Below, piece by piece: positions 3,437 to 51,621 of a DNA stretch of 61,587 nt (positions are counted from its first letter, which is position 1; the number at the start of each line of letters is the position of its first letter). A model generated the notes under the pieces. It ran no database searches and was not told where the DNA came from. It saw only the letters and a program-made list of their open reading frames with translations. The stretch lies in contig NZ_JAKFHA010000006.1 of the NCBI RefSeq assembly GCF_021502675.1, forward strand, positions 226,530 through 288,116, given 5' to 3'. This DNA comes from Yinghuangia soli (lineage in GTDB: Bacteria; Actinomycetota; Actinomycetes; Streptomycetales; Streptomycetaceae). The position numbers and the translations under genes are program-made.

Positions 3437-3451
3437 CTGACGGACCGTCAG
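3437..3451. promoter_or_regulatory. Putative steroid-regulon operator, site 1
   Basis: The site reads CTGACGGACCGTCAG, a palindrome apart from its central base. It sits between the divergent fadE31 and fadA6 genes, 46 bp from the fadA6 start. It is the best match to the ten-site consensus CTGAC-NNN-CCGTCAG. Confidence 0.8.
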
Positions 3452-3496
3452 GTAAGCGGTCCAGGGGATGTCCGTTAAATCACTCTGGGAGTTCCG

Positions 3497-4663
3497 ATGC
3501 CCGAGGCATACATCGTCGAGGCGGTCCGTACGCCGGTCGGTCGCAAGAAGGGCTCCCTTGCGGGCGTCCACCCGGCCGACCTCGGCGCGCACGCCCTCAA
3601 GGCCCTGGTCGAGCGCAGCGGCATCGACCCGGACACGGTCGACGACGTGATGATGGGCTGCGTCGACGCGATCGGCCCGCAGGCGGGCAACGTGGCGCGC
3701 ACCGCGTGGCTGGCGGCCGGCTACTCGGAGGCCGTACCGGGCGTCACCATCGACCGCCAGTGCGGCTCGTCGCAGCAGGCCATCCACTTCGCCGCGCAGG
3801 CCGTGATGTCCGGCACGAACGACGTGGTCATCGCCGGCGGCCTGCAGAACATGAACCAGATCCCGATCTCGGCGGCCATGACCTCGGCCGCTCAGTTCGG
3901 CTTCACCGACCCGTTCTCGGGTTCCAAGGGCTGGGTGGACCGATACGGGAACGAGCCGGTCGACCAGTTCTACGGCGCCGAGCTGATCGCCAAGCGCTGG
4001 GGCATCACGCGCCGCGAGATGGAGGAGTTCGCGCTCGCCTCGCACGACCGCGCGATCGCCGCCATCGACAACGGGCACTTCGCCAAGGAGATCGCCCCCA
4101 TCGAGGTCGGCGGCACCCTCGTCGACACCGACGAGCCCCCGCGCCGCGGCACCACGCTGGAGAAGATGGCCGAGCTCAAGGTGCTCATGGAGGACGGCAG
4201 CATGACCGCCGCCGTCGCCTCGCAGATCTCGGACGGCGCCGCCGCACTGCTCATCGTCTCGGAGCGCGCGCTGGAGCAGTACGGCCTGACCCCGCGGGCC
4301 CGCATCCACCACATCAGCGTGCGCGGCGCGTCGCCGATCGAGATGCTCTCCGCGCCGATCCCGGCCACCGAGTACGCGTTCGCCAAGACCGGTCTCACCA
4401 TCGACGACATCGACGCGGTCGAGATCAACGAGGCGTTCGCCCCGGTCGTGCTGTCCTGGATGAAGGACATCAAGGCGGACCACGCCAAGGTCAACCCGAA
4501 CGGCGGCGCCATCGCGCTGGGCCACCCGCTCGGTGCCACCGGCGCGCGCCTGATGACCACCCTGCTGCACCAGCTGGAGCGCACCGGCGGCCGCTACGGC
4601 CTGCAGACCATGTGCGAAGGCGGCGGCCTGGCGAACGTCACCATCATCGAGCGCCTGGGCTGA
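3497..4663 (+). CDS. fadA6: Thiolase FadA6, HIP degradation
   Basis: This 388-residue thiolase begins MPEAYIVEAV. The nucleophilic Cys89 lies in DRQCGSSQQ, followed by NEAFAPVV, the histidine motif NPNGGAIALGHPLGATGA and the second cysteine in MCEGGG. Runs such as GCVDAIG, MSGT and QIPIS match mycobacterial FadA6 rather than FadA5 as I recall them. FadA6 performs a thiolytic step on the linear diacyl-CoA left after IpdAB opens ring C. It faces fadE31, whose product is thought to act close to this step, across operator site 1. A strong hairpin follows the stop, so it is probably monocistronic. Confidence 0.88.
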   Translation: MPEAYIVEAVRTPVGRKKGSLAGVHPADLGAHALKALVERSGIDPDTVDDVMMGCVDAIGPQAGNVARTAWLAAGYSEAVPGVTIDRQCGSSQQAIHFAAQAVMSGTNDVVIAGGLQNMNQIPISAAMTSAAQFGFTDPFSGSKGWVDRYGNEPVDQFYGAELIAKRWGITRREMEEFALASHDRAIAAIDNGHFAKEIAPIEVGGTLVDTDEPPRRGTTLEKMAELKVLMEDGSMTAAVASQISDGAAALLIVSERALEQYGLTPRARIHHISVRGASPIEMLSAPIPATEYAFAKTGLTIDDIDAVEINEAFAPVVLSWMKDIKADHAKVNPNGGAIALGHPLGATGARLMTTLLHQLERTGGRYGLQTMCEGGGLANVTIIERLG

Positions 4664-4704
4664 TCCGCCCGCGGGCGGCGCACCCGCCGCACCGCACCGC
4701 GTAC

Positions 4705-4750
4705 GCCGAAGGGCGGCCTTTCCCCTCCCCGGGAAGGGCCGCCCTTCGGC
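4705..4750. terminator. Hairpin downstream of fadA6
   Basis: Arms 4705-4718 and 4737-4750 pair perfectly over 14 bp, and the interior can pair further (CTTTCCC with GGGAA). It begins about 40 bp after the fadA6 stop. Confidence 0.75.
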
Positions 4751-4775
4751 GTTCCCGGGCAGGCCCGGAAGAACC

Positions 4776-4830
4776 GATCCCGCAGAGATCCCGCATAGAT
4801 CCCGGGCAGGCCCGGCACAGATCCCGCACG
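4776..4830. repeat. Five degenerate 11-bp tandem units
   Basis: Units starting at 4776, 4787, 4798, 4809 and 4820 follow the pattern GATCCCGCANA. A 15-bp copy of CCCGGGCAGGCCCGG also occurs twice (4754 and 4801). The stretch lies in the 316-bp gap before the roadblock operon, which holds no gene. Confidence 0.6.
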
Positions 4831-4979
4831 CGAAATGTTTGGCAACTCCCAGAATGCGGGCGGAGATTCTAGACCCAGGGCACGGGGGGTCCGCTGGGAA
4901 ACAGCTGATTTCACCCGTTCGCGGAAGGACCCTGCGTAGCGTCTCGGTCACTGTCGCCACGCAGGAAGGGGAGCCCGGC

Positions 4980-7443: not shown

Positions 7444-8133
7444 TCAGGCGCCGGTCGGCACGGCCGAGCGCGCGGGCGGCGGTGCGTCCTCGGCCCTGCG
7501 CACCACGACGCCGACCGTCACGATCATCACGGCCATCCCGCCCGCGCCCAGCCCCATGGCGGCGCCCGGGTCGAGCGAGGCGAGGGTCCCCAGGCTGGGG
7601 GCGACCCGGTTGGCCGGGTCGTACACCGCGAGGAAGCGGTCCCCCGGCGCGCCGGGGCAGGCACCGGACTCGCGCAGTTCGTCGCGGGAGCCGTCCGGCA
7701 GGCGTACGACGCAGAACTGCGTGGGCTCGGAGCCCGGCGTCACCTCGCGGGTGCGCTGCTCGACGACGGTGGCGCTGCCGTCCTTGCCGAAGACGTACAT
7801 GTAGAGGTCGTACGCCTGCAGCGCGGAGGCCAGCAGCAGGAGGCTGCCCAGCGCCCCCGAGATCATCAGGGCCCACGGACGCGGGCGGATGTGCCGCAGC
7901 ACGTAGTAGCGCAGCAGGGCCAGTTGCAGCAGGAGCGGGGCCGCGACGACGATGCCGCGGGCCATTCCGCCTTCCAGGAAGCTGCTGTTCAGCCCGTACA
8001 CCTGGACCGGCCAGCACACCGCGCAGACCATGAGGAAGACCGCTGCACGCCACGCGAGGGTGTGGTGGTCGACCGCGGGCAGGCGCCAGCGGGGCAGGAT
8101 CCGTAACGTGAGTCCACTTACCGGGCCAGGCAT
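7444..8133 (-). CDS. Integral membrane protein, unknown function
   Basis: This 229-residue protein begins MPGPVSGLTL. Hydrophobic segments lie at about residues 28-48, 59-78, 88-108 and 198-218. A soluble loop between the third and fourth contains two cysteines, in TQFCVVRL and GACPGAPG. I do not recognise the family. Its start overlaps the end of the upstream SDR gene by 16 bases, so the two are probably expressed together, although nothing in the sequence ties it to steroid metabolism. Confidence 0.6.
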   Translation of the reverse strand: MPGPVSGLTLRILPRWRLPAVDHHTLAWRAAVFLMVCAVCWPVQVYGLNSSFLEGGMARGIVVAAPLLLQLALLRYYVLRHIRPRPWALMISGALGSLLLLASALQAYDLYMYVFGKDGSATVVEQRTREVTPGSEPTQFCVVRLPDGSRDELRESGACPGAPGDRFLAVYDPANRVAPSLGTLASLDPGAAMGLGAGGMAVMIVTVGVVVRRAEDAPPPARSAVPTGA

Positions 8134-8882
8134 GCTCCACCGTCCACGGCCAACGTCGCACCCGTAATGTACGACGCCGCATCGGATGCCAGGAACAGTA
8201 CGGCGTCCGCGACTTCGTGCCGTGAGCCGTGCCGGCCGAGCGGACTGTGCGTGCGGGTGCCGGTGACGGCGGTGACGCGGCTGTACCCCTCGGTGCCGGT
8301 CATCCCGCCGGGGGCGACGACGTTGACGCGGACCTTGTTCTTGCCCCACTCGATCGCGCAGGTGCGGGTGAGGGCGTCCACTCCGGCCTTGGCGGAGGCC
8401 ACGTGCGCCTGCATCGCCATGCCGGTGTACTGGATGGTCGCCGAGATGTTGACGATCGTGCCGCCGTGCTCGCCGAGGTAGGCGTCGAACGCGGCCCGGG
8501 ACATGTTGAACGTGCCGAGCAGGTCGATGTCGACGACCGCCTTGAAGCCGTTCGGGCTGAGCCCGGTCAGCGGCGCGGGGAAGTTGCCCGCGGCGTTGTT
8601 GACGACGATGTCCAGCCGGCCGTAGGCGTCCAGCGTCTCGGCGACGACCTTCTGAACCTGCGTCATATCCCGTATGTCGCATACCCCGTAGCGCGCGTCT
8701 ATGCCCTGCGAGACCAGCTCTTTGACGGCCGGCCGCAGGTTGTCCTCCTTGCGGCTGCAAATCGCCACCTTGGCGCCGTGCCGCCCCAGCGTCCGGGCGA
8801 TCTCCAGCCCCAGTCCGGTTGCTCCGCCGGTCACGACGGCTACCCGGCCCTCCAGGATGTCCTCGCGGAAGATGCTCGTCAT
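8118..8882 (-). CDS. SDR, 2,4-dienoyl-CoA reductase-like
   Basis: This 254-residue short-chain dehydrogenase begins MTSIFREDIL. The cofactor motif is TGGATGLG (18-25) and the NNAAG motif is at 95-99. In place of the usual Tyr-x-x-x-Lys it has HVASAKAG, keeping the lysine but not the tyrosine, as in the peroxisomal 2,4-dienoyl-CoA reductase (DECR) branch. The segment NFPAPLTGLSPNGF also fits DECR. The likely role is reduction of a dienoyl-CoA during side-chain or ring-derived beta-oxidation. Operator site 2 lies 43 bp upstream, which places it in the steroid regulon. Confidence 0.75.
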   Translation of the reverse strand: MTSIFREDILEGRVAVVTGGATGLGLEIARTLGRHGAKVAICSRKEDNLRPAVKELVSQGIDARYGVCDIRDMTQVQKVVAETLDAYGRLDIVVNNAAGNFPAPLTGLSPNGFKAVVDIDLLGTFNMSRAAFDAYLGEHGGTIVNISATIQYTGMAMQAHVASAKAGVDALTRTCAIEWGKNKVRVNVVAPGGMTGTEGYSRVTAVTGTRTHSPLGRHGSRHEVADAVLFLASDAASYITGATLAVDGGACLAR

Positions 8883-8924: not shown

Positions 8925-8939
8925 CTGACCACGTGTCAG
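8925..8939. promoter_or_regulatory. Putative steroid-regulon operator, site 2
   Basis: The site reads CTGACCACGTGTCAG and lies 43 bp upstream of the DECR-like SDR start. The outer half-sites are perfect, and the spacer differs from the consensus CCG. It could also serve the plus-strand gene at 9122, but that gene is 180 bp away. Confidence 0.65.
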
Positions 8940-21080: not shown

Positions 21081-21095
21081 CTGACTGATCGTCAG
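21081..21095. promoter_or_regulatory. Putative steroid-regulon operator, site 3
   Basis: The site reads CTGACTGATCGTCAG with perfect half-sites. It lies 143 bp from echA20 and 125 bp from the divergent SDR-tetR transcript, so it would control both and would make the TetR gene autoregulated. Confidence 0.8.
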
Positions 21096-22023: not shown

Positions 22024-22027
22024 CGGC

Positions 22028-35004: not shown

Positions 35005-35019
35005 CTGACACACCGTCAC
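35005..35019. promoter_or_regulatory. Putative steroid-regulon operator, site 4
   Basis: The site reads CTGACACACCGTCAC and differs from the consensus only in the last base of the right half-site. It lies between the divergent fadE and fadD genes. Confidence 0.6.
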
Positions 35020-36633: not shown

Positions 36634-36829
36634 AGCAGGCGTTTGAGCTGCCGGAGTCGTGGGGCAACGCTCCGCAAGGCAAAACCCTCCGGCTGGGAGA
36701 CCCCCTTTGACCGGCGGCTTCTTCGAAAAATATTGACCAAGTCACCAGAAATCCCCATGATCGGACAGAAATGCAAGACCACGGGGAGATGAGACGGTAG
36801 ACAGTCCTGACGTCCCATCAGCAAGCTAA

Positions 36830-36844
36830 CTGACTGACCGTCAG
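36830..36844. promoter_or_regulatory. Putative steroid-regulon operator, site 5
   Basis: The site reads CTGACTGACCGTCAG with perfect half-sites and the consensus CCG, 46 bp upstream of the ADP-forming acyl-CoA synthetase gene. The 257-bp gap around it shows no gene. Confidence 0.8.
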
Positions 36845-39167: not shown

Positions 39168-40031
39168 ATGAGTGCGACCCCCGAGACGACCGAGCCGGAG
39201 CTGCTCCACCGCGTCGAGAACGGCGTCCTGTGGATCACCCTGAACCGCCCCAAGGCCAGCAACGCCATCACCTGGGACCAGCGCGAGACCATCATCACGC
39301 TGCTCGGCGAGGCGTCCGCGAACGAGGCGGTGCGCGCGGTCGTGCTCGGCGCGGCGGGCGAGAAGCACTTCTGCACCGGCATGGACCTGCGCAGCTCGCC
39401 GGGCACCAAGTCGCTGCTCGCGGACGCCGCACCGGCCGAGGAGGGCGCGCCCCAGCCGCCCGCCCGGCCGACCGGTTACGCATCGCGCATGATGAAGAAC
39501 GGCGTGCTGCGGCTGACCACCGCGGTGCTGGAGTGCGAGAAGCCGGTCATCGCGGCGATCAACGGCACCACGGCCGGCTACGGCATGAGCCTGGCGCTGG
39601 CCTGCGACCTGGTAATCGCGGCGGACACCGCGCGGTTCATCCAGATCTTCACCCGCCGCGGCCTGATCCCGGACGGCGGCAGCGCCTACCTGCTGCCGCG
39701 CCTGGTCGGTCCGCAGAAGGCGAAGGAGCTCATGTTCTTCGGCGACGACCTGCCGGCCGCCGAGGCGCTGCGCATCGGCGTCGTCAACAAGGTCGTGGCG
39801 GCCGACGAGCTGGCGGCCACCGTCAAGGAGTGGGCCGAGCGCCTGGCCACCGGCCCGACCCGGGCCCTGGCCATCACCAAGCGCCTGGTCAACCGCTCGC
39901 TGGACAGCGACCGCGCGACCGCCTTCGGCGAGGAGGCGGACTCGGTGGAGCTCAACATGACCACCCGGGATGCCAACGAGGGCGTGGCGAGCCTGATGGA
40001 GCGCCGCAAGCCGGAGTACTACGGCTGGTGA
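39168..40031 (+). CDS. Enoyl-CoA hydratase/isomerase family protein
   Basis: I start this 287-residue protein at ATG 39168 (MSATPETTEP) behind AAGGAACG. Crotonase motifs are NRPKASNAITWDQR, HFCTGMDLRSS for the first oxyanion-hole segment and INGTTAGYGMSLALACDLVI for the second, with RRGLIPDGGSAYLLPRLVG carrying the position of one catalytic Glu, here Asp. An insert of about 35 residues rich in Pro and Ala follows the first segment. It is the second gene of the operon with the ADP-forming synthetase, and its substrate is probably an unsaturated acyl-CoA of the steroid pathway. Confidence 0.8.
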   Translation: MSATPETTEPELLHRVENGVLWITLNRPKASNAITWDQRETIITLLGEASANEAVRAVVLGAAGEKHFCTGMDLRSSPGTKSLLADAAPAEEGAPQPPARPTGYASRMMKNGVLRLTTAVLECEKPVIAAINGTTAGYGMSLALACDLVIAADTARFIQIFTRRGLIPDGGSAYLLPRLVGPQKAKELMFFGDDLPAAEALRIGVVNKVVAADELAATVKEWAERLATGPTRALAITKRLVNRSLDSDRATAFGEEADSVELNMTTRDANEGVASLMERRKPEYYGW

Positions 40032-40182: not shown

Positions 40183-40197
40183 CTGACTATCCGTCAG
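40183..40197. promoter_or_regulatory. Putative steroid-regulon operator, site 6
   Basis: The site reads CTGACTATCCGTCAG with perfect half-sites and the consensus CCG, 101 bp upstream of the flavin reductase gene. The 267-bp gap around it shows no gene. Confidence 0.8.
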
Positions 40198-40298: not shown

Positions 40299-40805
40299 AT
40301 GGGCCAGCTCGACGCTCCCGCCGTCGACTCCGCCGCGTTCCGGCACGTGCTCGGGCACTTCTGCAGCGGCGTCACGATCATCACGGCGCAGGACGGCGAG
40401 GCCCCGGTCGGCTTCGCCTGCCAGTCCTTCTCGGCGCTCTCGCTGGACCCGCCGCTGGTGACGTTCTTCGTGGCCAAGACCTCGACCACCTGGCCGCGCA
40501 TCCAGCCGGGCGGCAAGTTCTGCGTCAACGTGCTGGCCGACGACCAGGAGCAGCTGTGCCGCGGCTTCGCGGTCAGCGGCGCGGACAAGTTCGCCGGCGT
40601 CGCGTACAAGCCCGCCCCGGCCACCGGCTCGCCGCTGCTGGAAGGCACCCTGGCGTACATCGACTGCACGCTGGAGCAGGTCGTGGACGGCGGCGACCAC
40701 GAGATCGTCATCGGCCGCGTGCAGGCGCTCGAGGCGCCGCGCGAGGACGCCGGCCCGCTGCTGTTCTACAAGGGCAAGTTCGGGCACCCGGCGCAGAACG
40801 CCTGA
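40299..40805 (+). CDS. HsaB-like flavin reductase
   Basis: This 168-residue protein begins MGQLDAPAVD. It matches the flavin reductase domain of two-component monooxygenases: FRHVLGHFCSGVTIITAQDG, VGFACQSFSALSLDPPLV, GGKFCVNVLADDQE, KFAGV, LAYIDCTLEQVVDGGDHEIVIGRV. HsaB of mycobacteria (about 187 residues) reads very similarly and supplies reduced flavin to the hydroxylase HsaA in A/B-ring degradation. No hsaA, hsaC or hsaD is in this window, so its partner must be elsewhere or different. It stands alone behind operator site 6. Confidence 0.8.
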   Translation: MGQLDAPAVDSAAFRHVLGHFCSGVTIITAQDGEAPVGFACQSFSALSLDPPLVTFFVAKTSTTWPRIQPGGKFCVNVLADDQEQLCRGFAVSGADKFAGVAYKPAPATGSPLLEGTLAYIDCTLEQVVDGGDHEIVIGRVQALEAPREDAGPLLFYKGKFGHPAQNA

Positions 40806-41052: not shown

Positions 41053-42063
41053 ATGCGCAAGCACCTGCTCGGCACGGCCGTCGGTGCCATGTCCCTGGCC
41101 CTGCTCCTGGCCGGCTGCTCAGGCGGCTCGGACGACCCGGAGAGCACCGCAGGCAGCGCGTCCGGCACGCCGACCGGCGAGGCCTCCCCCGCGCCGTCCG
41201 GCACCGCCGCGGACAGCACTGCCGCGTCCGGCAGTTCGGCCGCCAAGGCGCAGAGCCCGGCGGTCGCCGCACTCGCCGCGAAGCTCGGTTCGTCCCGGAC
41301 CAAGCTGGCCGCGGTCACCTCCGTGGAGATGAAGATGACGCAGGTCATCGACGGGCAGCGGACCTTCGACATCGACGCCGAGTCGCGGTTCGCGCCGGAC
41401 AACGTGGCCCGCATGACGATGACGTACGACGCCAAGTTCCTGTCCCAGCTGCGCGGCACGCGTGTCACCGAGCCGATGAGCATAGAGACGCTCGTCACAC
41501 CGACCGCCATGTACATGAACCTCGGACCGGAGGCGGCTGCCAAGAACGGCGCCCCCTGGGTCAAGCTCGACGCCGAGGAAATGCGCAAGGCGGACAAGAC
41601 CGGTGCCGTCGAGCAGTACCAGAAGATGGCGGAGGAGGGCAGCGGCGGGCAGCAGGACCCGGCCGCGCAGCTCGCCCTGCTGCAAAAGTCGGGCGACATC
41701 AAGGAGATCGGCGAGGAGACTGTCGGCGGGGTCAAGACCACGCATTACAAGGGCGTCGTGGACTTGCCGCTGCTGCAGGCGAACAACGCCGCGAGCCTGG
41801 GCCTGCAGGACAAGGACTACAAGCAGCTGAGCGACCTGTTCTCGAAGATGGGGGTGCGCGAGGCGGGCATCGACCTGTGGATCGGCGCCGACCAGCTGCC
41901 GGTGAAGCAGACCACCACGATCACGGTGAAGGCCAAGGGCCAGACCGCCGAGGTGGCCACCACGGTCGAGTACGTGAAGTGGAACGTCCCGGTCGACGTC
42001 ACGCCGCCGCCCGCGGGACAGACGGTGTCCATCACGGACCTGATCGCACGAGGCAAAATGTAG
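41053..42063 (+). CDS. Lipoprotein, LppX/LprAFG-like, copy 1
   Basis: This 336-residue protein starts at ATG 41053 (MRKHLLGTAV), which gives a proper lipoprotein signal with LLLAGC and Cys22 as the lipidation site. A Ser/Thr/Ala-rich spacer follows, then a domain of about 260 residues with the pattern KMTQVIDGQRTFDIDAESRF, MTMTYDAKFL and a C-terminal segment GIDLWIGADQLPVKQTTTIT. This resembles LprG/LppX-type lipid-binding lipoproteins or related DUF families. It is followed 58 bp later by a paralogue. There is no steroid operator, although surface lipoproteins could help lipid uptake. Confidence 0.7.
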   Translation: MRKHLLGTAVGAMSLALLLAGCSGGSDDPESTAGSASGTPTGEASPAPSGTAADSTAASGSSAAKAQSPAVAALAAKLGSSRTKLAAVTSVEMKMTQVIDGQRTFDIDAESRFAPDNVARMTMTYDAKFLSQLRGTRVTEPMSIETLVTPTAMYMNLGPEAAAKNGAPWVKLDAEEMRKADKTGAVEQYQKMAEEGSGGQQDPAAQLALLQKSGDIKEIGEETVGGVKTTHYKGVVDLPLLQANNAASLGLQDKDYKQLSDLFSKMGVREAGIDLWIGADQLPVKQTTTITVKAKGQTAEVATTVEYVKWNVPVDVTPPPAGQTVSITDLIARGKM

Positions 42064-42121
42064 TCCGGTCGGATTCGTGATCCGACCATCAGCTTTCCAC
42101 TTTCTTCCCGGGAGCCTTCCA

Positions 42122-43144
42122 GTGCGCAAGCGCAGTCTCGGCGCCGCCATCGGCGCCATAGCCCTCTCGATGGCCGTGACCGGCTGCGGAGCGGGCGGCG
42201 CCAACACGGCATCCGACTTCTACGAAGCCGCGCAGCAGGAGTCCTCGGCGGCCACGCCGACGCCGGGCAGCGGGAGCGGCGGGAGCGGCTCCAGCAAGCC
42301 CCCGGTGCCCTCCGCCACGGTCGCCACGCTGGCCGCGAAGCTGGGCGGCGCACGGGCCAAGGCGGATGCCGCCACGGCCGTCACGATGGCGGTCACCACG
42401 AAGATCGACGGCAAGCTGATGATGGCGATGACCGGGGCCGTCCAGTCGAAGCCCGAGCTGGCGATGCGCATGCACATGAAGTTCGGCGAGGCGTTCGCCG
42501 ACATGATGGAGGACTTCGACGGCACCGAGCCGACCGCGGAGGCGACGGGGCTGCCCGCGATGCAGATGCTCCTCACCCCGAAGGCCATGTACATCTCCAT
42601 GACCGGGATGTACGACGCCGACGTCCTCGACGGGAAGCACTGGCTCCAGGTCGACATGGACGACCTCAAGGCGGCCGACAAGTACGGCAGCCTCGCCGAG
42701 CTGCAGGCGATGATCGACAGCGGCGCCGGCATCGGTCCCGGCGCGGACCTGGCGCTGCTGGCCAAGTCGCAGGACATCGTCGAGGTGGGCCAGGAGACCG
42801 TGGACGGCGTCCGGACCACGCATTACCGGGTCGTGGTCGACGACGACCTGATCGGCGACCACACGCCCCAGAGCCTCGGCGTGACGAAGTCCGACTACGA
42901 CATGCTCGACGACCAGTACGGCGGCATGAGCGGCGATGCGACCGTGGACGTCTGGGTCGACGCCGCCCAACTGCCGGTGAAGCACAGCGTGTCGCTCAAG
43001 ATGGGCGGCTTCAAAGGCAAGGGCTCGATGCAGGTCGAGACGCGCTTCTCCGACTGGGGCAAGCCGGTCGACCAGACTCCCCCGCCGGCCTCGGACACCA
43101 AGAAGTGGACGCCCGAGCTCGACCGGAAGCTCGAAGAGGCCTGA
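42122..43144 (+). CDS. Lipoprotein, LppX/LprAFG-like, copy 2
   Basis: I start this 340-residue protein at GTG 42122 (VRKRSLGAAI), preceded by GGAG at seven bases, because it gives a lipoprotein signal with AVTGC and Cys22; an ATG 45 bases earlier would spoil it. The body parallels copy 1: TMAVTTKIDGKLMMAMTGAV, LTPKAMYISMTGMYDADV, SQDIVEVGQETVDGVRTTHY and VDVWVDAAQLPVKHSVSLK. The two genes form a tandem duplication, and lipid binding is an inference from the family. Confidence 0.7.
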   Translation: MRKRSLGAAIGAIALSMAVTGCGAGGANTASDFYEAAQQESSAATPTPGSGSGGSGSSKPPVPSATVATLAAKLGGARAKADAATAVTMAVTTKIDGKLMMAMTGAVQSKPELAMRMHMKFGEAFADMMEDFDGTEPTAEATGLPAMQMLLTPKAMYISMTGMYDADVLDGKHWLQVDMDDLKAADKYGSLAELQAMIDSGAGIGPGADLALLAKSQDIVEVGQETVDGVRTTHYRVVVDDDLIGDHTPQSLGVTKSDYDMLDDQYGGMSGDATVDVWVDAAQLPVKHSVSLKMGGFKGKGSMQVETRFSDWGKPVDQTPPPASDTKKWTPELDRKLEEA

Positions 43145-43264: not shown

Positions 43265-44332
43265 TCAGAAGACGAAGACGCCGCGCGCGACCTTGCCCGC
43301 CTCGGCGTCCTCCACCGCGTGGTGGAAGTCGTCCAGGGCGTAGGTCTGGGTGACCAGCTCGTCGAGCTTCAGGGCGCCGGTGCCGTACAGGTCGGCGTAC
43401 CGGGCGATGTCGTACTGCGGGCGCGACGAGCCGTACCGGCAGCCCATGATCGACTTGTCCAGGAACATCGAGGACACGTGGAACGAGGCCTCGGCGTCGG
43501 ACGGGGCAACGCCCAGGATGACCGCCTGGCCGCCGCGGCCCAGCATGTCGATGGCGTTGCGGATGACCGCGACGTGGCCGACGCACTCGAAGGCGTGGTC
43601 GACGCCGCCGGGCACCAGCTCCTGGACCGCCTTGACCGAGCTCTCCACGGCCTTGGCGTCCACGAAGTCGGTGGCGCCGAACTCGCGGGCCACCGCCTCC
43701 TTGGCCGGGTTGGCGTCCACCGCGACGATCTTCACGGCGCCGGCCAGCTTGGCGGCCTGGATGACGTTGAGGCCGATGCCGCCGGTGCCGATGACCGCGA
43801 CGGTGTCGCCGGGCTGCACCTTGGCGCGGTTGAGCACCGCGCCGACGCCGGTGAGCACGCCGCAGCCGATGAGCGCGGCCGAGGCCAGCGGGATCGACTT
43901 GGGGATCTTCACCGCCTGGACGCCCTTGACCACGATCTTCTCGGTGAAGACCGAGAGGCCCGCGAAGCTCCAGACGTCCTTGCCGCCGCGCTTGAACGGC
44001 GCGCTCAGGTTGCCGAAGCTCTTGGCGCACATGGTCGGACGCCCGCGGTCGCACTCGCGGCAGGTGCCGCACGCGGCCAGCGTGGACAGCGCCACGTGGT
44101 CGCCGGGCGCGACGTGCGTGACCAGCTCGCCGACCGACTCGACGATGCCCGCGCCCTCGTGCCCGAGCACGACCGGCGGCGGGAACGGGATGGTGCCGTT
44201 GATGACGCTGATGTCGGAGTGGCACAGACCGGCGGCGCCGATCTTCACCAGAACCTCGTTCGGCCCCGGGTCGCGGACCTCGAGGTCGTCGACCACCAGG
44301 GCCTCTTTGCCGTCGAACAGAACGCCTTTCAC
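43265..44332 (-). CDS. Zinc-dependent alcohol dehydrogenase
   Basis: This 355-residue medium-chain dehydrogenase begins MKGVLFDGKE. Catalytic zinc ligands are Cys37 (GLCHSD) and His58-Glu59 (GHEG). Structural zinc cysteines are 88, 91, 94 and 102 (CGTCRECDRGRPTMC). The NAD-binding motif is IGTGGIGLN. It resembles class III-type and mycothiol-era actinobacterial alcohol dehydrogenases. A plausible role is oxidation of a terminal side-chain alcohol or of a ring hydroxyl. Operator site 7 lies 88 bp upstream, which puts it in the steroid regulon. Confidence 0.82.
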   Translation of the reverse strand: MKGVLFDGKEALVVDDLEVRDPGPNEVLVKIGAAGLCHSDISVINGTIPFPPPVVLGHEGAGIVESVGELVTHVAPGDHVALSTLAACGTCRECDRGRPTMCAKSFGNLSAPFKRGGKDVWSFAGLSVFTEKIVVKGVQAVKIPKSIPLASAALIGCGVLTGVGAVLNRAKVQPGDTVAVIGTGGIGLNVIQAAKLAGAVKIVAVDANPAKEAVAREFGATDFVDAKAVESSVKAVQELVPGGVDHAFECVGHVAVIRNAIDMLGRGGQAVILGVAPSDAEASFHVSSMFLDKSIMGCRYGSSRPQYDIARYADLYGTGALKLDELVTQTYALDDFHHAVEDAEAGKVARGVFVF

Positions 44333-44420: not shown

Positions 44421-44435
44421 CTGACGATGAGTCAG
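44421..44435. promoter_or_regulatory. Putative steroid-regulon operator, site 7
   Basis: The site reads CTGACGATGAGTCAG with perfect half-sites, 88 bp upstream of the alcohol dehydrogenase start. The spacer lacks the consensus CCG. Confidence 0.65.
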
Positions 44436-45152: not shown

Positions 45153-45932
45153 TCAGGCGCGCTGGCTGCTGACCGAGACGACCTCGCCGGTCATGTACGA
45201 CGAGTAGTCGGAGGCCAGGAACACCATGACGTTGGCAATCTCCCACGGCTCGGCGGCGCGGCCGAAGGCCTCGGCGCTGCTGAGCTGGGTGAGCAGTTCC
45301 TCGCTGGACGCCTTCGCGAGGAAGGCGTGCATCGCGATGCTGGGCGCGACCGCGTTGACCCGGACCCCGAACTCGGCGGCCTCGACCGCGGAGCAGCGGG
45401 TCAGCGCCATGACGCCGGCCTTGGCGGCGGCGTAGTGCGCCTGGCCCTTCTGGGCGCGCCAGCCGAGCACCGAGGCGTTGTTGACGATGACGCCCTTGCC
45501 GCGCGGCTGCATGTGGCGCAGTGCCGCGCGGGTCATGCGGAAGGTGCCGTTGAGGGTGACGTCCAGGACCAGGTTCCACTGGTCGTCGGTCATGTCGACG
45601 AGGTCGACCTGGCCGCCGAGGCCGGCGTTGTTGATCAGGATGTCGATGCCGCCCAGCTCGGCCGCCGCGGTGTCGACCAGGTTCTGGACGTCCGTCTCGA
45701 CGGTGACATCGCACGGCACCGCGAGCGGGCGCGCGCCGGTGAGCTTGGCGAGCTCGTCGGCGGCCTCGCCGAGGCGGCGCTCGTGCTTGTCGCTGATCGC
45801 GATCGTGGCGCCTTCCTCGGCGGCCTTCTTCGCGGCGGCGAAGCCGATGCCGGTGCCCGCGGCCGCGGTGACCAGGACGGTCTTGCCGGCCAGCAGGCCG
45901 TGTCCGGCCACGTACTCGGGGGCGCTGGTCAC
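45153..45932 (-). CDS. ipdF: IpdF, SDR of HIP degradation
   Basis: This 259-residue SDR starts at GTG 45932 (VTSAPEYVAG). Motifs are AAAGTGIG (23-30), NNAG (101-104) and Tyr167-x-x-x-Lys171. The strings VNNASVLGWRAQ, HYAAAKAGVMALTRC and the C-terminus SSYMTGEVVSVSSQRA match what I recall of mycobacterial IpdF (Rv3559c), which acts on the 5-hydroxyl of the HIP-derived CoA ester. It overlaps the fadE30 stop by three bases (GTGA), the same gene pair as in mycobacteria. The operon starts further upstream, behind operator site 8. Confidence 0.85.
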   Translation of the reverse strand: MTSAPEYVAGHGLLAGKTVLVTAAAGTGIGFAAAKKAAEEGATIAISDKHERRLGEAADELAKLTGARPLAVPCDVTVETDVQNLVDTAAAELGGIDILINNAGLGGQVDLVDMTDDQWNLVLDVTLNGTFRMTRAALRHMQPRGKGVIVNNASVLGWRAQKGQAHYAAAKAGVMALTRCSAVEAAEFGVRVNAVAPSIAMHAFLAKASSEELLTQLSSAEAFGRAAEPWEIANVMVFLASDYSSYMTGEVVSVSSQRA

Positions 45933-47113
45933 TTGGCTTCTCCTCGGGGTTCGCGGGGCATGCCGAGGACGCGCTCGGCGATGATGTTGCGCTGCACCTC
46001 GTTCGACCCGCCGTAGATGGTGTCCGACTTGGTGAACAGGAACAGCCGCTGGGGCTCGGTGAGTTCGTACGGCAGCTCGGCGGCGAGCGTGGACTCCGCG
46101 CCGCCGACGTCCATCGCCAGGGTGCCGAGCCGCTGGTGCCAGGTGCCCCAGACCAGCTTGGCCACGCTCGGCGCGCCGGGGTCGGGCGAGCCGAGGGTGC
46201 GCAGCGCGTTGCAGCGCAGCACCTTCAGCTCGATCCAGGCCTGCAGCAGGCGCTCGCGCAGGGCCGGGTCCTCGATCGCGCCGTTGGCCTTGGCGGTGTC
46301 GATGACGGCCTGGAGCTCCAGCTCGAAGCCGATCTGCTGGGCCAGCGTGGAGACGCCGCGCTCGAAGGCCAGCAGGCCCATCGCGACGCCCCAGCCCTGG
46401 CCGAGCTGCCCGACGACGTGCTCGTTCTTGGCGCGGGCGCCGTCGAAGAACACCTCGTTGAACTCGCTGGTGCCGGTGAGCTGCACGATCGGCCGGATCT
46501 CGATGCCGGGCTGGTCCATCGGGGCCAGGAAGAACGAGATGCCCTTGTGCTTGGCCGAGCCGGGCTCGGTGCGGGCCAGCACGAAGATCCAGTCGGCCTC
46601 GTGGGCCAGCGAGGTCCACACCTTCTGGCCGCTGATCAGCCAGTCCCCGGTCTCCGGGTCCTGGGTGCCCGAGGTGCGCAGCGCGGCCAGGTCGGAGCCG
46701 GCGCCCGGCTCCGAGTAGCCCTGGCACCACAGCTCCTCGCCGCGCGCGATGGGCGGCAGGAAGCGGGCCTTCTGCTCGTCGGTGCCGAAGGCCAGGACGG
46801 TCGGGCCGAGCAGGTTCTCGCCCATGTGGTTGACGCGGCCGGGGGCCTTGGCGCGGGCGTACTCCTCGCCGAAGATCACCTGCTGCATCAGGGTCGCCTC
46901 GCGGCCCCCGTATTCCTTGGGCCAGTCCAGGCCGATCCAGCCGCCCTCGCCGAGGCGGCGCTCCCACGCGCGGCGGATCTCGAAATGCTCGTGCTCGCTG
47001 CCGGGGCCGCCGGTGCCGACGGCCGCGGCGAACTCGCCGGAGAGGTTCTCGCGGAGCCACTCGCGGACCTCCGCCCGGAACTCCTCGTCCTCGTCGCTGT
47101 AGCGAAAGTCCAC
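45929..47113 (-). CDS. fadE30: FadE30, acyl-CoA dehydrogenase of HIP degradation
   Basis: This 394-residue protein begins MDFRYSDEDE. It has the flavin-contact segment LWCQGYSEPGAGSDLA (128-143), a candidate catalytic Glu251 in AFERGVS and the C-terminus YGGSNEVQRNIIAERVLGMPRE. NGQK-type and TGTSEFNEVFFD segments match mycobacterial FadE30, which dehydrogenates the HIP-CoA ring side chain early in the pathway. It precedes ipdF with a four-base overlap. The SDR gene at 47230 lies upstream on the same strand, separated by a hairpin that may reduce read-through. Confidence 0.87.
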   Translation of the reverse strand: MDFRYSDEDEEFRAEVREWLRENLSGEFAAAVGTGGPGSEHEHFEIRRAWERRLGEGGWIGLDWPKEYGGREATLMQQVIFGEEYARAKAPGRVNHMGENLLGPTVLAFGTDEQKARFLPPIARGEELWCQGYSEPGAGSDLAALRTSGTQDPETGDWLISGQKVWTSLAHEADWIFVLARTEPGSAKHKGISFFLAPMDQPGIEIRPIVQLTGTSEFNEVFFDGARAKNEHVVGQLGQGWGVAMGLLAFERGVSTLAQQIGFELELQAVIDTAKANGAIEDPALRERLLQAWIELKVLRCNALRTLGSPDPGAPSVAKLVWGTWHQRLGTLAMDVGGAESTLAAELPYELTEPQRLFLFTKSDTIYGGSNEVQRNIIAERVLGMPREPRGEAK

Positions 47114-47229: not shown

Positions 47230-48150
47230 TCAGCCCTGCGCGGCGGCCTCGGCGGCCTTCTTCGCGGCGGCCGCGGCGGCGTACTCCTTGAGCTGCGCGA
47301 GGACCGGCATCGGGTCCTGGCCGATGGCGCCGGGCAGCGTGGCGGCGATGGACTCGGCGGTCCACTTCTCCTCGCTGTACATCGACTTGATCTCGTGCGG
47401 CTGGTCCCACAGCGCGATCTTCGGGCCCGCGGTCGTGTAGACCTGGCCGGTGATGTCCTTGGCGTGGTCGGAGAGCAGGAAGACGACCAGCTCCGCGACG
47501 TCCTCGGGGTCGCCGATCTCCTTCAGCGTCATCGGGACGTTCTCGGACATGCGGGTGCGCGCGACGGGCGCGACGCAGTTGGCGTTGACGCCGTACTTGT
47601 TCAGGCCCAGCGCGGCGGAGCGGACGAACGAGACGATGCCGCCCTTGGCCGCGGCGTAGTTCGCCTGCGCGACCGAGCCGAGCGCGTACACGCCCGAGGT
47701 GAAGCCGACGATCGAGCCGAAGCCCTGCTGCTTCATGACCTTGGACGCCGCCTGCACGACGGTGAAGGTGCCCTTGAGGTGGGTGGCGATGACGCTGTCC
47801 CACTCGTCCTCGGTCATGTTGAACAGCATGCGCTCGCGCAGGTTGCCCGCGACGGTGACGACGCCGTCGATGCGGCCCCACTTCTCCACGCCGGCGTTCA
47901 CGATGCGGGCGCCGCCCTCCATCGTGGCGACCGAGTCGGCGACCGCGACGGCCTCGCCGCCGAGGGCCTCGATCTCCTTGACGACGGCGTCGGCGACCTC
48001 GCTGGTCGGCTCGGAGCCGTCCATCGCGACGCCGTAGTCGTTCACGACGACCTTGGCGCCGTGGGCGGCGGCGGCGAGCGCCACCGCGCGGCCGATACCG
48101 CGGCCCGCGCCGGTCACCGCGATGACCTTGCCGGTCAGGAAGTCACCCAT
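47230..48150 (-). CDS. SDR, MFE-2-like 3-hydroxyacyl-CoA dehydrogenase
   Basis: I start this 306-residue protein at ATG 48150 (MGDFLTGKVI) with AAGGGG six bases upstream; an upstream GTG is possible. Motifs are TGAGRGIG (13-20), VVNDYGV after the second strand, TVAGNLRERMLFNM, and Tyr-x-x-x-Lys in NYAAAKGG. The VVNDYG segment and the C-terminal extension resemble the dehydrogenase unit of multifunctional enzyme type 2, so a beta-hydroxyacyl-CoA dehydrogenase role is likely. It is the promoter-proximal gene of the SDR-fadE30-ipdF group, 126 bp from operator site 8. Confidence 0.78.
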   Translation of the reverse strand: MGDFLTGKVIAVTGAGRGIGRAVALAAAAHGAKVVVNDYGVAMDGSEPTSEVADAVVKEIEALGGEAVAVADSVATMEGGARIVNAGVEKWGRIDGVVTVAGNLRERMLFNMTEDEWDSVIATHLKGTFTVVQAASKVMKQQGFGSIVGFTSGVYALGSVAQANYAAAKGGIVSFVRSAALGLNKYGVNANCVAPVARTRMSENVPMTLKEIGDPEDVAELVVFLLSDHAKDITGQVYTTAGPKIALWDQPHEIKSMYSEEKWTAESIAATLPGAIGQDPMPVLAQLKEYAAAAAAKKAAEAAAQG

Positions 48151-48275
48151 GTTCTGCCCCTTCGGATCGGCCTGCGACATGTCCGCGTGGACCCTGTCCA
48201 ACGGCCCTGTTGGTCCCTAGCATGGTCGCCGTATCTTGATCGACGCCATGTGAGAACTGCCTCTCCCGACAGTAT

Positions 48276-48290
48276 CTGACGGTACGTTAG
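48276..48290. promoter_or_regulatory. Putative steroid-regulon operator, site 8
   Basis: The site reads CTGACGGTACGTTAG with one mismatch in the right half-site. It lies between the divergent SDR-fadE30-ipdF group and the cyclase-family gene, 55 bp from the latter. Confidence 0.65.
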
Positions 48291-48344: not shown

Positions 48345-49271
48345 ATGCCCATGCCCGCCGAGTTCTACGAACTGGCCAAGCGCGTCAACAACTGGGGGCG
48401 CTGGGGCAAGGACGACCAGATCGGGACGATGAACCTGATCACCGACGACGTCGTCAAGGCCGCCGCCTCCTGCGTCAAGACCGGCAAGCGCTTCTCGCTC
48501 GCCGTCGAGCTGCGCGAGGACGGCATCCAGAACGGGATGATCCCGGGACGCGACAACCCCAAGCGCACCACCTTCCTCGTGAACCACGAAGTCTTCGGCC
48601 CCGGCACGGTCGCCACGAGCGACGACTCCGTCGTGATGGGCATTCAGGCGGGTACCCACTGGGACGGTTTCACGCACGCCACGTACGAGGACCGCCTCTA
48701 CAACGGCTTCTCCGCGAAGGAGTCGGTCACCGCCGAGGCGGGCGCCGTCAACCTGGGCATCGAGAAGATCAAGTCGCTGGTGACACGTGGCGTATTGCTC
48801 GACGTCGCGCGCGCCAAGGGCGTCGACATCCTCGACCCCGAGTACGCCGTCACCCCCGAGGACCTGGAAGCCGCCGAGGAGTTCGGCAACGTCAAGGTCC
48901 GGGCCGGCGACGTGGTCCTGGTCCGCACCGGCCAGATCACCAAGTACCTCGGCGGCGACCGGGACGGCTACTTCTACGGCCCGGGCCTCTCGGTCCGCTG
49001 CCCCGAGTGGTTCCACGCCCGCGACGTGGCCGCGGTCGCCAACGACACCGTGGTCTTCGAGGTCTTCCCGCCCGAGATCGAGGACTGCTTCATGGCCGTC
49101 CACGCGCTGCACCTGGTCGAGATGGGCATGCTGCAGGGCCAGAACTGGAACCTCGAAGAACTCTCCGCGGACTGCGCCGCGGACGGCGTCTACGAGTTCC
49201 TCCTCGACGCCTCCCCCCAGCCGTTCGTCGGCGGCGTCGGCACCCCGGTGAACCCCATCGCCATCAAGTAG
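48345..49271 (+). CDS. Cyclase-family metal-dependent hydrolase
   Basis: This 308-residue protein begins MPMPAEFYEL with AGGAGG seven bases upstream. The segment GIQAGTHWDGFTHA carries the metal-binding signature of the cyclase/kynurenine formamidase family (His-Trp-Asp then His). WGKDDQIGTMNLIT and ARDVAAVANDTVVFEVFPPE are typical of the long bacterial cyclase subgroup. These enzymes hydrolyse amides, lactones or carbon-carbon bonds. Lying behind operator site 8 it is probably part of steroid breakdown, perhaps hydrolysing a lactone or ring ketone. This gene is not among the mycobacterial HIP genes I know. Confidence 0.78.
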   Translation: MPMPAEFYELAKRVNNWGRWGKDDQIGTMNLITDDVVKAAASCVKTGKRFSLAVELREDGIQNGMIPGRDNPKRTTFLVNHEVFGPGTVATSDDSVVMGIQAGTHWDGFTHATYEDRLYNGFSAKESVTAEAGAVNLGIEKIKSLVTRGVLLDVARAKGVDILDPEYAVTPEDLEAAEEFGNVKVRAGDVVLVRTGQITKYLGGDRDGYFYGPGLSVRCPEWFHARDVAAVANDTVVFEVFPPEIEDCFMAVHALHLVEMGMLQGQNWNLEELSADCAADGVYEFLLDASPQPFVGGVGTPVNPIAIK

Positions 49272-49484: not shown

Positions 49485-49499
49485 TTGACGATCGGTCAA
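49485..49499. promoter_or_regulatory. Inverted repeat TTGAC-N5-GTCAA
   Basis: TTGACGATCGGTCAA has the same geometry as the steroid operators but A/T instead of C/G at the outer position. It lies in a 372-bp gap without a gene, between convergent transcripts. It may be a relative of the operator or chance. Confidence 0.35.
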
Positions 49500-49552
49500 C
49501 ACCTGAGTCCGATCACAGATCGGATTCGTTCGATCGCGCCACGAGACCGCGG

Positions 49553-49581
49553 AAATTGTCCAACAGGCTGCTGGACAATTT
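49553..49581. repeat. Palindrome 1 near DUF1016 genes
   Basis: A 29-bp palindrome with one mismatched pair; the left arm starts AAATTGTCCAACAG. Its arm is related to palindromes 2 and 3 (core GTCCAACAG versus GGTCAACAG). Read on the minus strand it encodes IVQQPVGQ, like the DUF1016 motif QQAVDQ, but no gene is intact here. Confidence 0.65.
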
Positions 49582-49637
49582 GGCCAGGAACTTGGCGTGA
49601 CACCGGCCGTGGCAGCTCGCGACCAACGGGCTCATTT

Positions 49638-49664
49638 AATGGGTCAGCAACTTGTTGACCCATT
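49638..49664. repeat. Palindrome 2, at the DUF1016 stop codon
   Basis: A 27-bp palindrome with one mismatched pair; the left arm starts AATGGGTCAGCAA. It covers the last codons and the stop of the DUF1016 gene, giving the C-terminus NGSTSC, and may also act as its terminator. Confidence 0.65.
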
Positions 49665-50765
49665 AGACTCGTCGCCCTCACGCGGCCTGGGCAACTCCAC
49701 GGACTCACCTCGCGCCTCCAGTACCCGCCGGGCCACCCGCCCGAGATCGTCCGCACTAGGCAGCAGTGCCTGCATCTCGGGCGTCAGCGCACCGTAGGTG
49801 GACACCGCCATAGGCTGGCGCGAGTTGTTCAAGGCGTACTGCACGACCGAAGCGTTGCGTCCTGCCGCGATGAGGATCCCGATCGTCGGATCGTCGCGTG
49901 AGCTGTCGCGGACCAGGTCGTCCACCACCGCCACATAGAACCCGAGCTTGCCGATGTGCTCCGGCGTGGCCTTGACGGTCTTGAGCTCGATGACGACGTA
50001 GCGGTGCAGCTTGAGGTGGTAGAAGAGCAGGTCGATCAGGAACTCGTCGCCGCCGACGTCGAGGCGATACTGGCGCCCCACGAAAGCGAAGCCGACCCCG
50101 AGCTCCTGCAGGAAAGCCACGAGTTGGGCGACGAGCGCGTCCTCGAGCTCACGCTCGGCATGGTCGTCGGCGAGCCGCAGGAACTCCAGGTTGTACGGCT
50201 CGCGCGTGATCTGGCGGAGCAAGTCCGACTGCTCCGGCACCACAGCGTCGAAGTTGTGCAGTGCGACGCCTTCGCGCAGATGCAGTCCGCTCCGGATCAT
50301 GTGCGTCATGACGGCGCGCGACCAGCCGTGCTGAACTGCCTTCGCGGCGTAGAAGTCCTGCTCGGCGCGGGTGTCGAGGCTGCCTAGCAAGATCGTGATG
50401 TGCCCCCAGGGCAATTGGTCAACAGCCTGTTGACCAATTCCGTTCGGCCACAATGCTGCGAACTTCCGCATGTACTTGAGGTTGGTCCGGGAGAAGCCTG
50501 TCCGCTCAGGAAACTCGGCTCGAAGGTCCACAGCCAAGCGATCCATGACCTTCGTGCCCCACCCCTCCTGCCGCTGCCGATCCAGGATGATCTTGCCGAT
50601 GCGCCAGTAGTGCGCAATCAACTCGGCATTGACGGCCCTGACGACCCGCGACTGCGCAGTCGCGATCTCGCCCCGGATGTCGTCGAGCATCTCCGTGTAG
50701 GAAGCAGGCAGCGCGACGCCGGCCAGGCCCTCGTTCTCGGAGTTGTGGTCCACGGGCTTGGACAT
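49644..50765 (-). CDS. DUF1016 (YhcG-type) PD-(D/E)XK nuclease family protein
   Basis: This 373-residue protein begins MSKPVDHNSE. The N-terminal helical DUF1016 domain spans about 22-165 (AHYWRIGKIILDRQ, FPERTGFSRTNLKYMRKFA, QQAVDQLPWGHITILL). The C-terminal nuclease domain has Asp245, then Glu260 and Lys262 in VVIELK, the PD-(D/E)XK pattern. Family members are found in defence and mobile contexts, but their biological role is poorly defined. Its start follows the stop of a second DUF1016 gene by two bases. A perfect 27-bp palindrome lies inside its coding region. Confidence 0.8.
   Translation of the reverse strand: MSKPVDHNSENEGLAGVALPASYTEMLDDIRGEIATAQSRVVRAVNAELIAHYWRIGKIILDRQRQEGWGTKVMDRLAVDLRAEFPERTGFSRTNLKYMRKFAALWPNGIGQQAVDQLPWGHITILLGSLDTRAEQDFYAAKAVQHGWSRAVMTHMIRSGLHLREGVALHNFDAVVPEQSDLLRQITREPYNLEFLRLADDHAERELEDALVAQLVAFLQELGVGFAFVGRQYRLDVGGDEFLIDLLFYHLKLHRYVVIELKTVKATPEHIGKLGFYVAVVDDLVRDSSRDDPTIGILIAAGRNASVVQYALNNSRQPMAVSTYGALTPEMQALLPSADDLGRVARRVLEARGESVELPRPREGDESNGSTSC
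50413..50439. repeat. Palindrome 3, inside the DUF1016 gene
   Basis: A 27-bp palindrome, perfect around one central base; the left arm is AATTGGTCAACAG. It encodes the conserved GQQAVDQL segment of the DUF1016 domain on the minus strand. Confidence 0.75.
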
Positions 50766-50767
50766 GG

Positions 50768-51301
50768 TCAGCTCTCCTCCGCTTCACCGTCGGCGAGGTC
50801 GCGGCTGTGGAGGTCGATGTCGATCATGTGGATGAGGACGTTGCGGGACCAGCCGTACTCGACGGTTCGGCCGGCGTAGAAGTCGCGTTCGGCGCGGGTG
50901 AGGGTGTCGTCGAGGAGGACGACGATGTGGCCCCACGGGAGGCGGGTGACGGCGCGGAGGCCCAGGCCCTCGGGCCAGGCTTCGGCGAGGGACTGCATGT
51001 TGCGCAGGGCGCCGGCCGAGAAGCCCTTGCGGTCCGGGTACTCGCGGGCGAGCTGGCGGGCGAGGCGCTCGTACAGGCGCTGGCCTGCGTGCTCGCGGAG
51101 TTGCCACATGCTGATCGCCCGGCCGATGCGCCAGTAGCGGCGGATGGCGTCGGGGTTGGGGCCGATGACCTTGCCGATCGGGGCGTAGGCCACCTCTGCT
51201 GCCACCGCGCCATGCAGTTCGCCATACGTAGGCGGCAGTTCGGGTTCATCGGCGGCGCTGAATGTGTCCGGATAACGCGTCATGCCGACAACGTCGAGCA
51301 T
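50768..51301 (-). CDS. DUF1016 N-terminal domain protein without nuclease domain
   Basis: This protein has about 177 residues from ATG 51301 (MLDVVGMTRY); ATG 51283 is an alternative. It carries only the N-terminal DUF1016 domain: IRRYWRIGRAISMWQLRE, YPDRKGFSAGALRNMQSLAEAWP, RLPWGHIVVLLDDTLTRAERDFY. It ends with an acidic tail where the full-length neighbour continues into its nuclease domain. It may be a truncated duplicate or a dedicated partner subunit. The two-base gap to the full-length gene means both are made together. Confidence 0.72.
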   Translation of the reverse strand: MLDVVGMTRYPDTFSAADEPELPPTYGELHGAVAAEVAYAPIGKVIGPNPDAIRRYWRIGRAISMWQLREHAGQRLYERLARQLAREYPDRKGFSAGALRNMQSLAEAWPEGLGLRAVTRLPWGHIVVLLDDTLTRAERDFYAGRTVEYGWSRNVLIHMIDIDLHSRDLADGEAEES

Positions 51302-51519
51302 CCGTTCCCACCGCCGCGGGAGAACAAACCGGAGTCACCCGAGCGCCCGCATAGATCCGGGGTTGTGCGCCCCACGTCGGAGTGACGACCGCGCGCGGTG
51401 ATGAGAGAGGCAACGTTTCTGCATGGTCGGCGCACTCGCGGGTGGTGGCGGGGTACGCCAGGGTGGCGAGGGTGGATTCGGAGGCCGGGCGGCCCTCCCC
51501 GCGAGCCTGATACCAGCGA

Positions 51520-51534
51520 TCTGACGGTCCGTCG
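51520..51534. promoter_or_regulatory. Putative steroid-regulon operator, site 9
   Basis: The site reads CTGACGGTCCGTCGG with one mismatch in the right half-site. It lies 87 bp upstream of site 10 in the 387-bp gap before the fadE operon, which has no gene of its own. Confidence 0.6.
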
Positions 51535-51606
51535 GAAATTCTTGATCTTTCTCACAAGATCATTGCCGCGTCCCTCGATTTGATCTTGACCCGGTGCTAC
51601 GTTGAT

Positions 51607-51621
51607 CTGACTGTCCGTCAG
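51607..51621. promoter_or_regulatory. Putative steroid-regulon operator, site 10
   Basis: The site reads CTGACTGTCCGTCAG with perfect half-sites and the consensus CCG, 67 bp upstream of the first gene of the five-gene operon. Confidence 0.8.

Follow-up and report, generated by a model that had tools for sequence, protein, structure and literature searches.

Candidate operators of a steroid and acyl-CoA catabolic regulon in Yinghuangia soli and the TetR-family protein that probably reads them

We analyzed a stretch of 61,587 nucleotides of Yinghuangia soli (Streptomycetaceae; assembly GCF_021502675.1, contig NZ_JAKFHA010000006.1, positions 226,530 to 288,116), here called the window, in which copies of the inverted repeat CTGAC-N5-GTCAG stand in promoter regions of steroid-type and acyl-CoA genes. 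Judging from sequence comparison, these copies are likely to be the operators of one steroid/acyl-CoA catabolic regulon under the TetR_C_38 protein encoded at 22028-22675, which would fill the role of KstR2 with an operator of its own. As part of the same proposal, and held with the same confidence, the full operator is probably about 21 bp long and consists of the CTGAC-N5-GTCAG core with A/T flanks, which read WWT...AWW in distant metagenome-assembled genomes (MAGs) and are mainly an A at position -2 here. The TetR regulon would be wider than steroids, and the operator core is not exclusive to steroid genes in this genome.

The repeat in the window and its conservation

A preliminary description of the window had listed ten sites, and all ten are present in the sequence and intergenic by our own codon-model gene caller, whose starts tend to be short and make the distances from site to gene start approximate. 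Seven have perfect half-sites, as had been described (3437, 8925, 21081, 36830, 40183, 44421, and 51607), where 0.10 copies of the pattern CTGAC-N5-GTCAG were expected from 100 dinucleotide shuffles of the window and the largest number in any shuffle was 1. Among the three sites described as having one mismatch, 35005 and 48276 were placed correctly and the third, given as 51520, actually starts at 51521. A further promoter site, 36807, with the sequence CTGACGTCCCATCAG and one mismatch, lies 23 bp upstream of 36830 and had been overlooked. When up to one mismatch was allowed the window held 15 copies against 2.58 expected from the shuffles (largest 7), and at up to two mismatches the excess was gone (46 copies against 38). 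The ten sites and 36807 account for the 11 of the 15 copies that are intergenic; the remaining four, all with one mismatch, lie within genes (21875 and 22277) or across gene starts (2166 and 22020).

Comparison with relatives indicates that the sites are under selection. In an Embleya-group genome (G034), nine of the 11 promoter sites recur before the orthologous gene with one mismatch or none; 8925 and 51521 have no such counterpart. Differences between the nine pairs fall at 2 of 90 half-site positions, 11 of 45 spacer positions, and 61 of 216 flank positions, and for the counterparts in the congener G048 at 4 of 70, 6 of 35, and 61 of 168, respectively, but the choice of counterparts at one mismatch or fewer biases the half-sites to conservation and the sheer presence of the sites is the firmer observation. 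Beyond these relatives, a perfect site stands within 260 bp upstream of echA20 in 30 of the 80 echA20 loci of other genomes. A one-mismatch site was found in 10 of 49 loci without a perfect one, where shuffles predict 0.6; these are 49 of the 50 non-perfect loci, L124 with only 70 bp of upstream sequence having been left out. Five echA20 loci (L132, L144, L145, L152, and L155) come from MAGs titled Bifidobacterium breve and closely resemble those of Acidimicrobiia MAGs, and these titles look wrong.

The TetR-family protein and its co-occurrence with the site

The product of the gene at 22028-22675 (+ strand) carries the TetR_C_38 domain (PF19352, E 7.8e-63) and has a predicted TetR fold (AlphaFold2 mean pLDDT 92.7), the best fold matches being TetR repressors. 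Its gene is the second of a pair; the first, at 21220-22023 (+), codes for a short-chain dehydrogenase/reductase (SDR) of the PRK07856 family (NF005893, 394 bits against a cut-off of 255). Divergent from this pair is a hydratase gene at 20180-20938 (-) (NF005925, 422 bits against a cut-off of 260), which from its position we take to be echA20, with CoA-transferase genes behind it, and the perfect putative operator 21081..21095 occupies the divergent promoter. The SDR-TetR pair thus stands amid HIP-type (steroid C/D ring) genes in a setting like that of KstR2.

The preliminary description had supposed a shared TetR-type repressor, and comparison of genomes supports this, with 22028 as the probable regulator. 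A homologue was scored as present at E <= 1.2e-34 in a whole-genome profile search, and 30 genomes were tested: 18 have both a perfect echA20 site and a homologue, 2 only the site, 4 only the homologue, and 6 neither. Thus, 18 of the 20 genomes with the site have the homologue as against 4 of the 10 without it (Fisher p 0.007, kinship not being accounted for). At this threshold TetR matches of 1e-13 to 1e-17 in G007, G023, and G026 count as absent; at 1e-10, 25 of the 30 genomes match. Two of the genomes with only the homologue also carry a form of the site: G030 has a one-mismatch site before echA20, and G028 has a perfect site about 115 bp behind its TetR gene (L200). Within the Streptomycetaceae, 30 TetR loci from the set of 61 genomes were compared, and a perfect site was present at all 12 loci with EchA20 alongside, one of which is that of this genome, and at none of the 18 loci without it.

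A longer operator with A/T flanks

The 15-mer of the preliminary description is too short, because the steroid operators bear A/T flanks that most other sites lack. In the distant MAGs the operator reads WWT-CTGAC-N5-GTCAG-AWW: among 32 MAG promoter sites position -1 is T in 86% and position -2 is A or T in 91%, and in three MAGs (G008, G009, and G016) 28 of 32 promoter sites have A/T on both sides as against 3 of 12 intragenic sites. Nine of the ten window sites have at least one A/T side and five have both, with A at -2 in 85%. Elsewhere in this genome, 33 of 78 other promoter sites have at least one A/T side and 4 have both, and the corresponding numbers for 30 non-promoter sites are 9 and 0. 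On a flank score built from the MAG sites alone, the seven perfect window sites rank above the other promoter sites (p 0.010) and these in turn rank above the non-promoter sites (p 0.0004). When the sites outside the window are split by this score, lipid genes follow 13 of 47 in the upper half and 6 of 44 in the lower half, the latter obtained by subtraction and the difference being a trend only.

Distribution of the site in this genome and in distant MAGs

The 9.7-Mb genome has 115 perfect sites and only 2 for the same pattern reversed. By our placement 85 of the 115 are promoter-type and 30 are not; the intergenic share of the fetched sequence is 20%. The window is about 10-fold denser in perfect sites than the rest of the genome (7 against 0.69 expected, Poisson p 8e-6), and the p value is about 1e-3 once corrected for 157 windows. 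With 30 sites outside promoters and many promoter-type sites before unrelated genes, the view that the motif belongs exclusively to steroid and acyl-CoA genes has to be given up. The 100 genes downstream of the genomic sites match 135 Pfam families, and by eye they include kinases, a WhiB-like protein, TrpB, phosphoglycerate kinase, and transporters. Families of lipid type (SDR, AMP-binding, luciferase-like, acyl-CoA dehydrogenase, thiolase, enoyl-CoA hydratase, and CoA-transferase III) occur in 19 of the 91 downstream genes outside the window and in at least 3 of 87 control genes, a figure that comes from 25 of 118 families so that some single matches may be additional. Since most of the 91 genes have no visible link to lipids, a steroid-only regulon in this genome is rejected. 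Streptomycetaceae genomes of similar size hold from 5 to 346 perfect sites, with 0 to 14 for the controls and the extremes among G033, G057, G070, and G042.

In three distant MAGs, two of which (G008 and G009) bear the title Acidimicrobiia or Ilumatobacteraceae and the third (G016) only Actinomycetota, all 46 sites were fetched: 32 are promoter-type, 12 are intragenic, and 2 lie between genes without a start. The 50 genes downstream include 8 acyl-CoA dehydrogenases, 5 SDRs, 4 TauD dioxygenases, 3 enoyl-CoA hydratases, 3 zinc alcohol dehydrogenases, and 3 with a ChsH2-type OB domain. Genes of Y. soli with 50-57% identical MAG counterparts behind sites are the alcohol dehydrogenase behind site 44421 and, outside the window, two class III CoA-transferases and one SDR. 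Among the targets of this genome, 9 of 100 have a MAG target homologue of at least 35% identity, as against 7 of 393 controls (p 0.0014); for those outside the window the figures are 5 of 91 and 4 of 344 (p 0.02). This contrast is understated, because three of the control matches (45929-47113 and 47230-48180 in the window, both behind the one-mismatch site 48276, and L111:45-1493) look like operon mates of site-bearing genes, but the numbers are small throughout.

Comparison with known regulators

KstR2 is the TetR-family repressor that controls echA20, ipdAB, and their neighbors in the HIP regulon of Mycobacterium and Rhodococcus. Mycobacterial KstR2 recognizes AnCAAGnnCTTGnT and acts at three intergenic regions; among these is Rv3549c-Rv3550, the same divergent SDR/EchA20 spot as site 21081 (PMC3068626). 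The sites described here differ from it in sequence, being CTGAC-N5-GTCAG with A/T flanks, and in number, ten or eleven in this window alone against three in mycobacteria. The preliminary description had held that the motif is neither that of KstR nor that of KstR2, and it was right: simple patterns for both operators found none in the window, the KstR2 core occurs neither in the window nor before the 80 echA20 genes, as far as upstream sequence reached, and the KstR2 motif is not enriched in this genome (3 matches against 5 for the control).

In profile searches of the PDB, EthR of Mycobacterium tuberculosis was the best match and nearest solved relative (E 2.5e-14; predicted fold TM 0.79, 18% identity), while KstR matched only over positions 12-60 (E 0.0015) and no chain named KstR2 was among the best 60 of 197 matches; the protein may still be a far-diverged KstR2. 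EthR controls an unrelated gene, and the identity to it is low. Compared by operator, PfmR (TTHB023) of Thermus thermophilus is a TetR-family protein with beta-oxidation-type targets and the half-site CTGAC, but its consensus CTGACCGATCGGTCAG has a 6-bp spacer in which the inner bases matter for binding (PMC7022988); the sites here have a variable spacer of 5 bp. The footprint sequences of PccD of Mycolicibacterium are unlike this motif (PMC11596240), and PccD was rejected as a candidate. No description of the operator or of TetR_C_38 was present among the literature matches listed, most subscription journals being outside their coverage.

Weighing of the alternatives

Several observations weigh against the assignment of the sites to the 22028 protein. 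Two genomes, G007 and G017, have the site without a good TetR homologue; G007 shows weak matches and a TetR fragment at the edge of a contig, and G017 has no TetR match. Conversely, G021, G022, and G028 have the homologue, yet no site precedes their echA20 even when two mismatches are allowed, nor do G021 and G028 have a genome-wide excess of sites (2 against 3 and 5 against 3 for the controls). By tblastn only 4 of the 80 loci have the TetR gene within 6 kb of echA20, and the homologues in most of the distant MAGs are only 29-46% identical. A full-length homologue is present in all 61 Streptomycetaceae genomes (G000 and G031-G090) and 18 of the 30 TetR loci lack an adjacent EchA20; therefore, steroids are not the only job of this protein. 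To these are added the 108 perfect sites outside the window, the low flank scores of 8925 (-7.8), 44421, and 36807, and the congener G048, in which only seven sites have counterparts and that of 36807 is doubtful; the bias in the half-site counts noted above belongs here as well. Two clean classes of sites by flank were sought and not found, the scores grading continuously and overlapping.

One could take the TetR gene for a mere operon passenger and let another, unlinked regulator bind the sites, and this would agree with the TetR loci that have neither EchA20 nor a perfect site within 1.5 kb, with the sites of G017, with the distance between TetR and echA20 in most distant MAGs, and with the fact that binding by the TetR protein is itself inferred. 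We nevertheless consider such a regulator quite unlikely, for the presence of the TetR protein tracks the site over the 30 genomes, and in G016 six of the 13 sites are on contig C371, which also carries the TetR gene. In addition, G028, which has its perfect site close behind the TetR gene, holds the sole strong homologue among six genomes of the Actinomadura group, and the modeled TetR fold would suit a palindrome.

The other candidate is BldD, whose box is TNAC-N5-GTNA (PMC4151990). All seven perfect sites contain TGAC-N5-GTCA, so that their core is a perfect BldD box, and this genome encodes BldD at 93% identity. The BldD gene is itself preceded, at a distance of about 200 bp, by two TNAC-N5-GTNA boxes. 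If the sites were simply BldD boxes, the steroid genes would belong to the regulon of this c-di-GMP-dependent regulator, which is of another protein class, and the local TetR protein would be irrelevant; the many sites before genes unrelated to lipids and the excess over control in all 61 Streptomycetaceae genomes speak for this. It is an unlikely explanation all the same, because the sites do not track BldD over the 30 tested genomes. In six genomes of Actinomadura, Streptosporangium, and Thermomonospora BldD is 80-81% identical, yet over 8.6-10.7 Mb they carry only 3-7 perfect sites (control 0-6), none of which precedes echA20. Seventeen of the tested non-Streptomycetaceae genomes, of 2-5.4 Mb, have an echA20 site and hold 5-22 sites in all (control 0-8); their BldD-like proteins are distant at 40-50%, one at 67%. 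G017 and G020 have no BldD match at 1e-10 and hold 13 and 17 sites, respectively (control 2 and 0), although these are MAGs and may be incomplete. Moreover, the box does not require the outer C and G, which are present before echA20 in 30 of 30 TGAC-N5-GTCA matches, and it does not include the A/T flanks. BldD as the sole owner of the steroid sites was rejected because of the Actinomadura-group genomes, which have BldD without the sites, and of the distant MAGs, which have the sites at steroid-type genes.

Since their core matches the BldD box perfectly, BldD may act at some of the steroid sites as well. A two-layered arrangement, in which the TetR protein is the specific repressor and BldD acts on a subset of the sites and links steroid use to the developmental c-di-GMP state, is possible, though we would not expect it. 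Both proteins are present, the core obeys both rules, and the sites outside the window look mixed, with lipid families enriched and most neighbors of other kinds. Against this, selection by the TetR protein alone accounts for the steroid sites, the flank split gave no more than its trend for lipid genes, and for both proteins binding to the sites is inference. Control by the 22028 TetR protein, over a regulon wider than steroids, is thus the reading that we retain.

Genes behind the individual sites

The putative operator 3437..3451 (perfect) lies between a FadE-type acyl-CoA dehydrogenase gene at 2210-3376 (-) and a thiolase gene at 3497-4663 (+); its counterparts in G034 and G048 have a changed spacer, and that in G031, another congener, is identical. 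The candidate 8925..8939, with perfect half-sites, is upstream of an SDR gene at 8118-8882 (-), which is absent or weak in two relatives. By its sequence it is the weakest member of the set, because its flanks are poor and the site is missing before the 90% identical gene of G031. Site 21081 is perfect in G031, G034, and G048. The closest relatives of EchA20 in named genomes are those of Embleya scabrispora and Embleya hyalina (93%). Behind echA20, on the same (-) strand, are genes at 19288-20160 (CoA_trans family), 18503-19291, and 17433-18506 (nitronate monooxygenase family), which by position we presume to be IpdA-, IpdB-, and IpdC-like; for the 18503 and 19288 genes there was no NCBIfam match at 1e-20.

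Putative operator 35005..35019 (one mismatch) lies between FadE 33768-34925 (-) and a FadD-type ligase gene at 35116-36633 (+) and has a one-mismatch counterpart in G034 and G048. The putative operators 36807..36821 (one mismatch) and 36830..36844 (perfect) are paired upstream of the genes for an acyl-CoA ligase, 37005-39092 (+), and an enoyl-CoA hydratase, 39168-40031 (+). Their spacing is about two helical turns and the pair is kept in G034, 36807 being identical and 36830 perfect there, while 36830 has no counterpart in G048; possibly the pair takes two dimers on one face. Downstream, the perfect putative operator 40183..40197 precedes an HsaB-like flavin reductase gene at 40299-40805 (+), whose product scores just below the HsaB cut-off (218 against 230 bits). 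This site is perfect with a different spacer in G034. G048 lacks it, and in G031 it is missing before a gene of 58% identity. Two adjoining lipoprotein genes of the SCO4651 family (41053-43144) lie amid these operator-bearing genes and have no site themselves.

The perfect putative operator 44421..44435 is upstream of the zinc alcohol dehydrogenase gene at 43265-44332 (-) and has one-mismatch counterparts in G034 and G048; in the Ilumatobacteraceae MAG G009, a 51% identical homologue of this gene stands behind a perfect site. Putative operator 48276..48290 (one mismatch) is between an SDR gene at 47230-48180 (-) and a cyclase-family gene at 48345-49271 (+), and the identical mismatch is retained in G034 and G048. 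Upstream of FadE 51689-52876 (+) and a CoA-transferase III gene at 52894-54060 (+) is the perfect putative operator 51607..51621, which is again perfect with a changed spacer in G034 and G048; a putative second operator before this FadE gene, 51521..51535 (one mismatch), has no counterpart in G048 either.

Two of the one-mismatch copies overlap gene starts. The copy at 2166-2180 runs across the beginning of the acyl-CoA dehydrogenase gene at 1131-2174 (-) and is kept in G048 and G031 and not in G034, and the copy at 22020-22034 spans the TetR start codon and is kept in three relatives. In both cases the constraint on the coding sequence alone could explain the retention.

Proposed mechanism and significance

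We propose that a dimer of the 22028 TetR protein would bind the 21-bp palindrome near the transcription start and block transcription. By analogy with KstR2, a CoA thioester of steroid breakdown, HIP-CoA or a later one, would release it; such a ligand is suggested because HIP-CoA is the effector of KstR2 (PMC5380842). Since the TetR gene comes second, after the SDR gene, downstream of the 21081 operator, the protein would be expected to repress itself along with echA20 and the CoA-transferase genes and so damp its own output.

A bolder extension, which we regard as doubtful, is that the TetR_C_38 protein has long been a core regulator of steroid and acyl-CoA catabolism in both Acidimicrobiia and Streptomycetaceae, taking the part of KstR2 at the same promoters by way of an unrelated operator, and that in Streptomycetaceae this operator came to coincide with the BldD box, wiring steroid and lipid use into c-di-GMP-dependent development.

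The control of HIP catabolism is known mainly through KstR2 of the mycolic-acid bacteria. If the proposal that the 22028 protein acts on these sites is true, a second regulator with its own operator at the same promoter would show how the pathway has been rewired, and steroid-degradation genes would become predictable from sequence alone in Acidimicrobiia and Streptomycetaceae. It would also assign a likely role to a TetR protein that is found in every one of the Streptomycetaceae genomes compared here.

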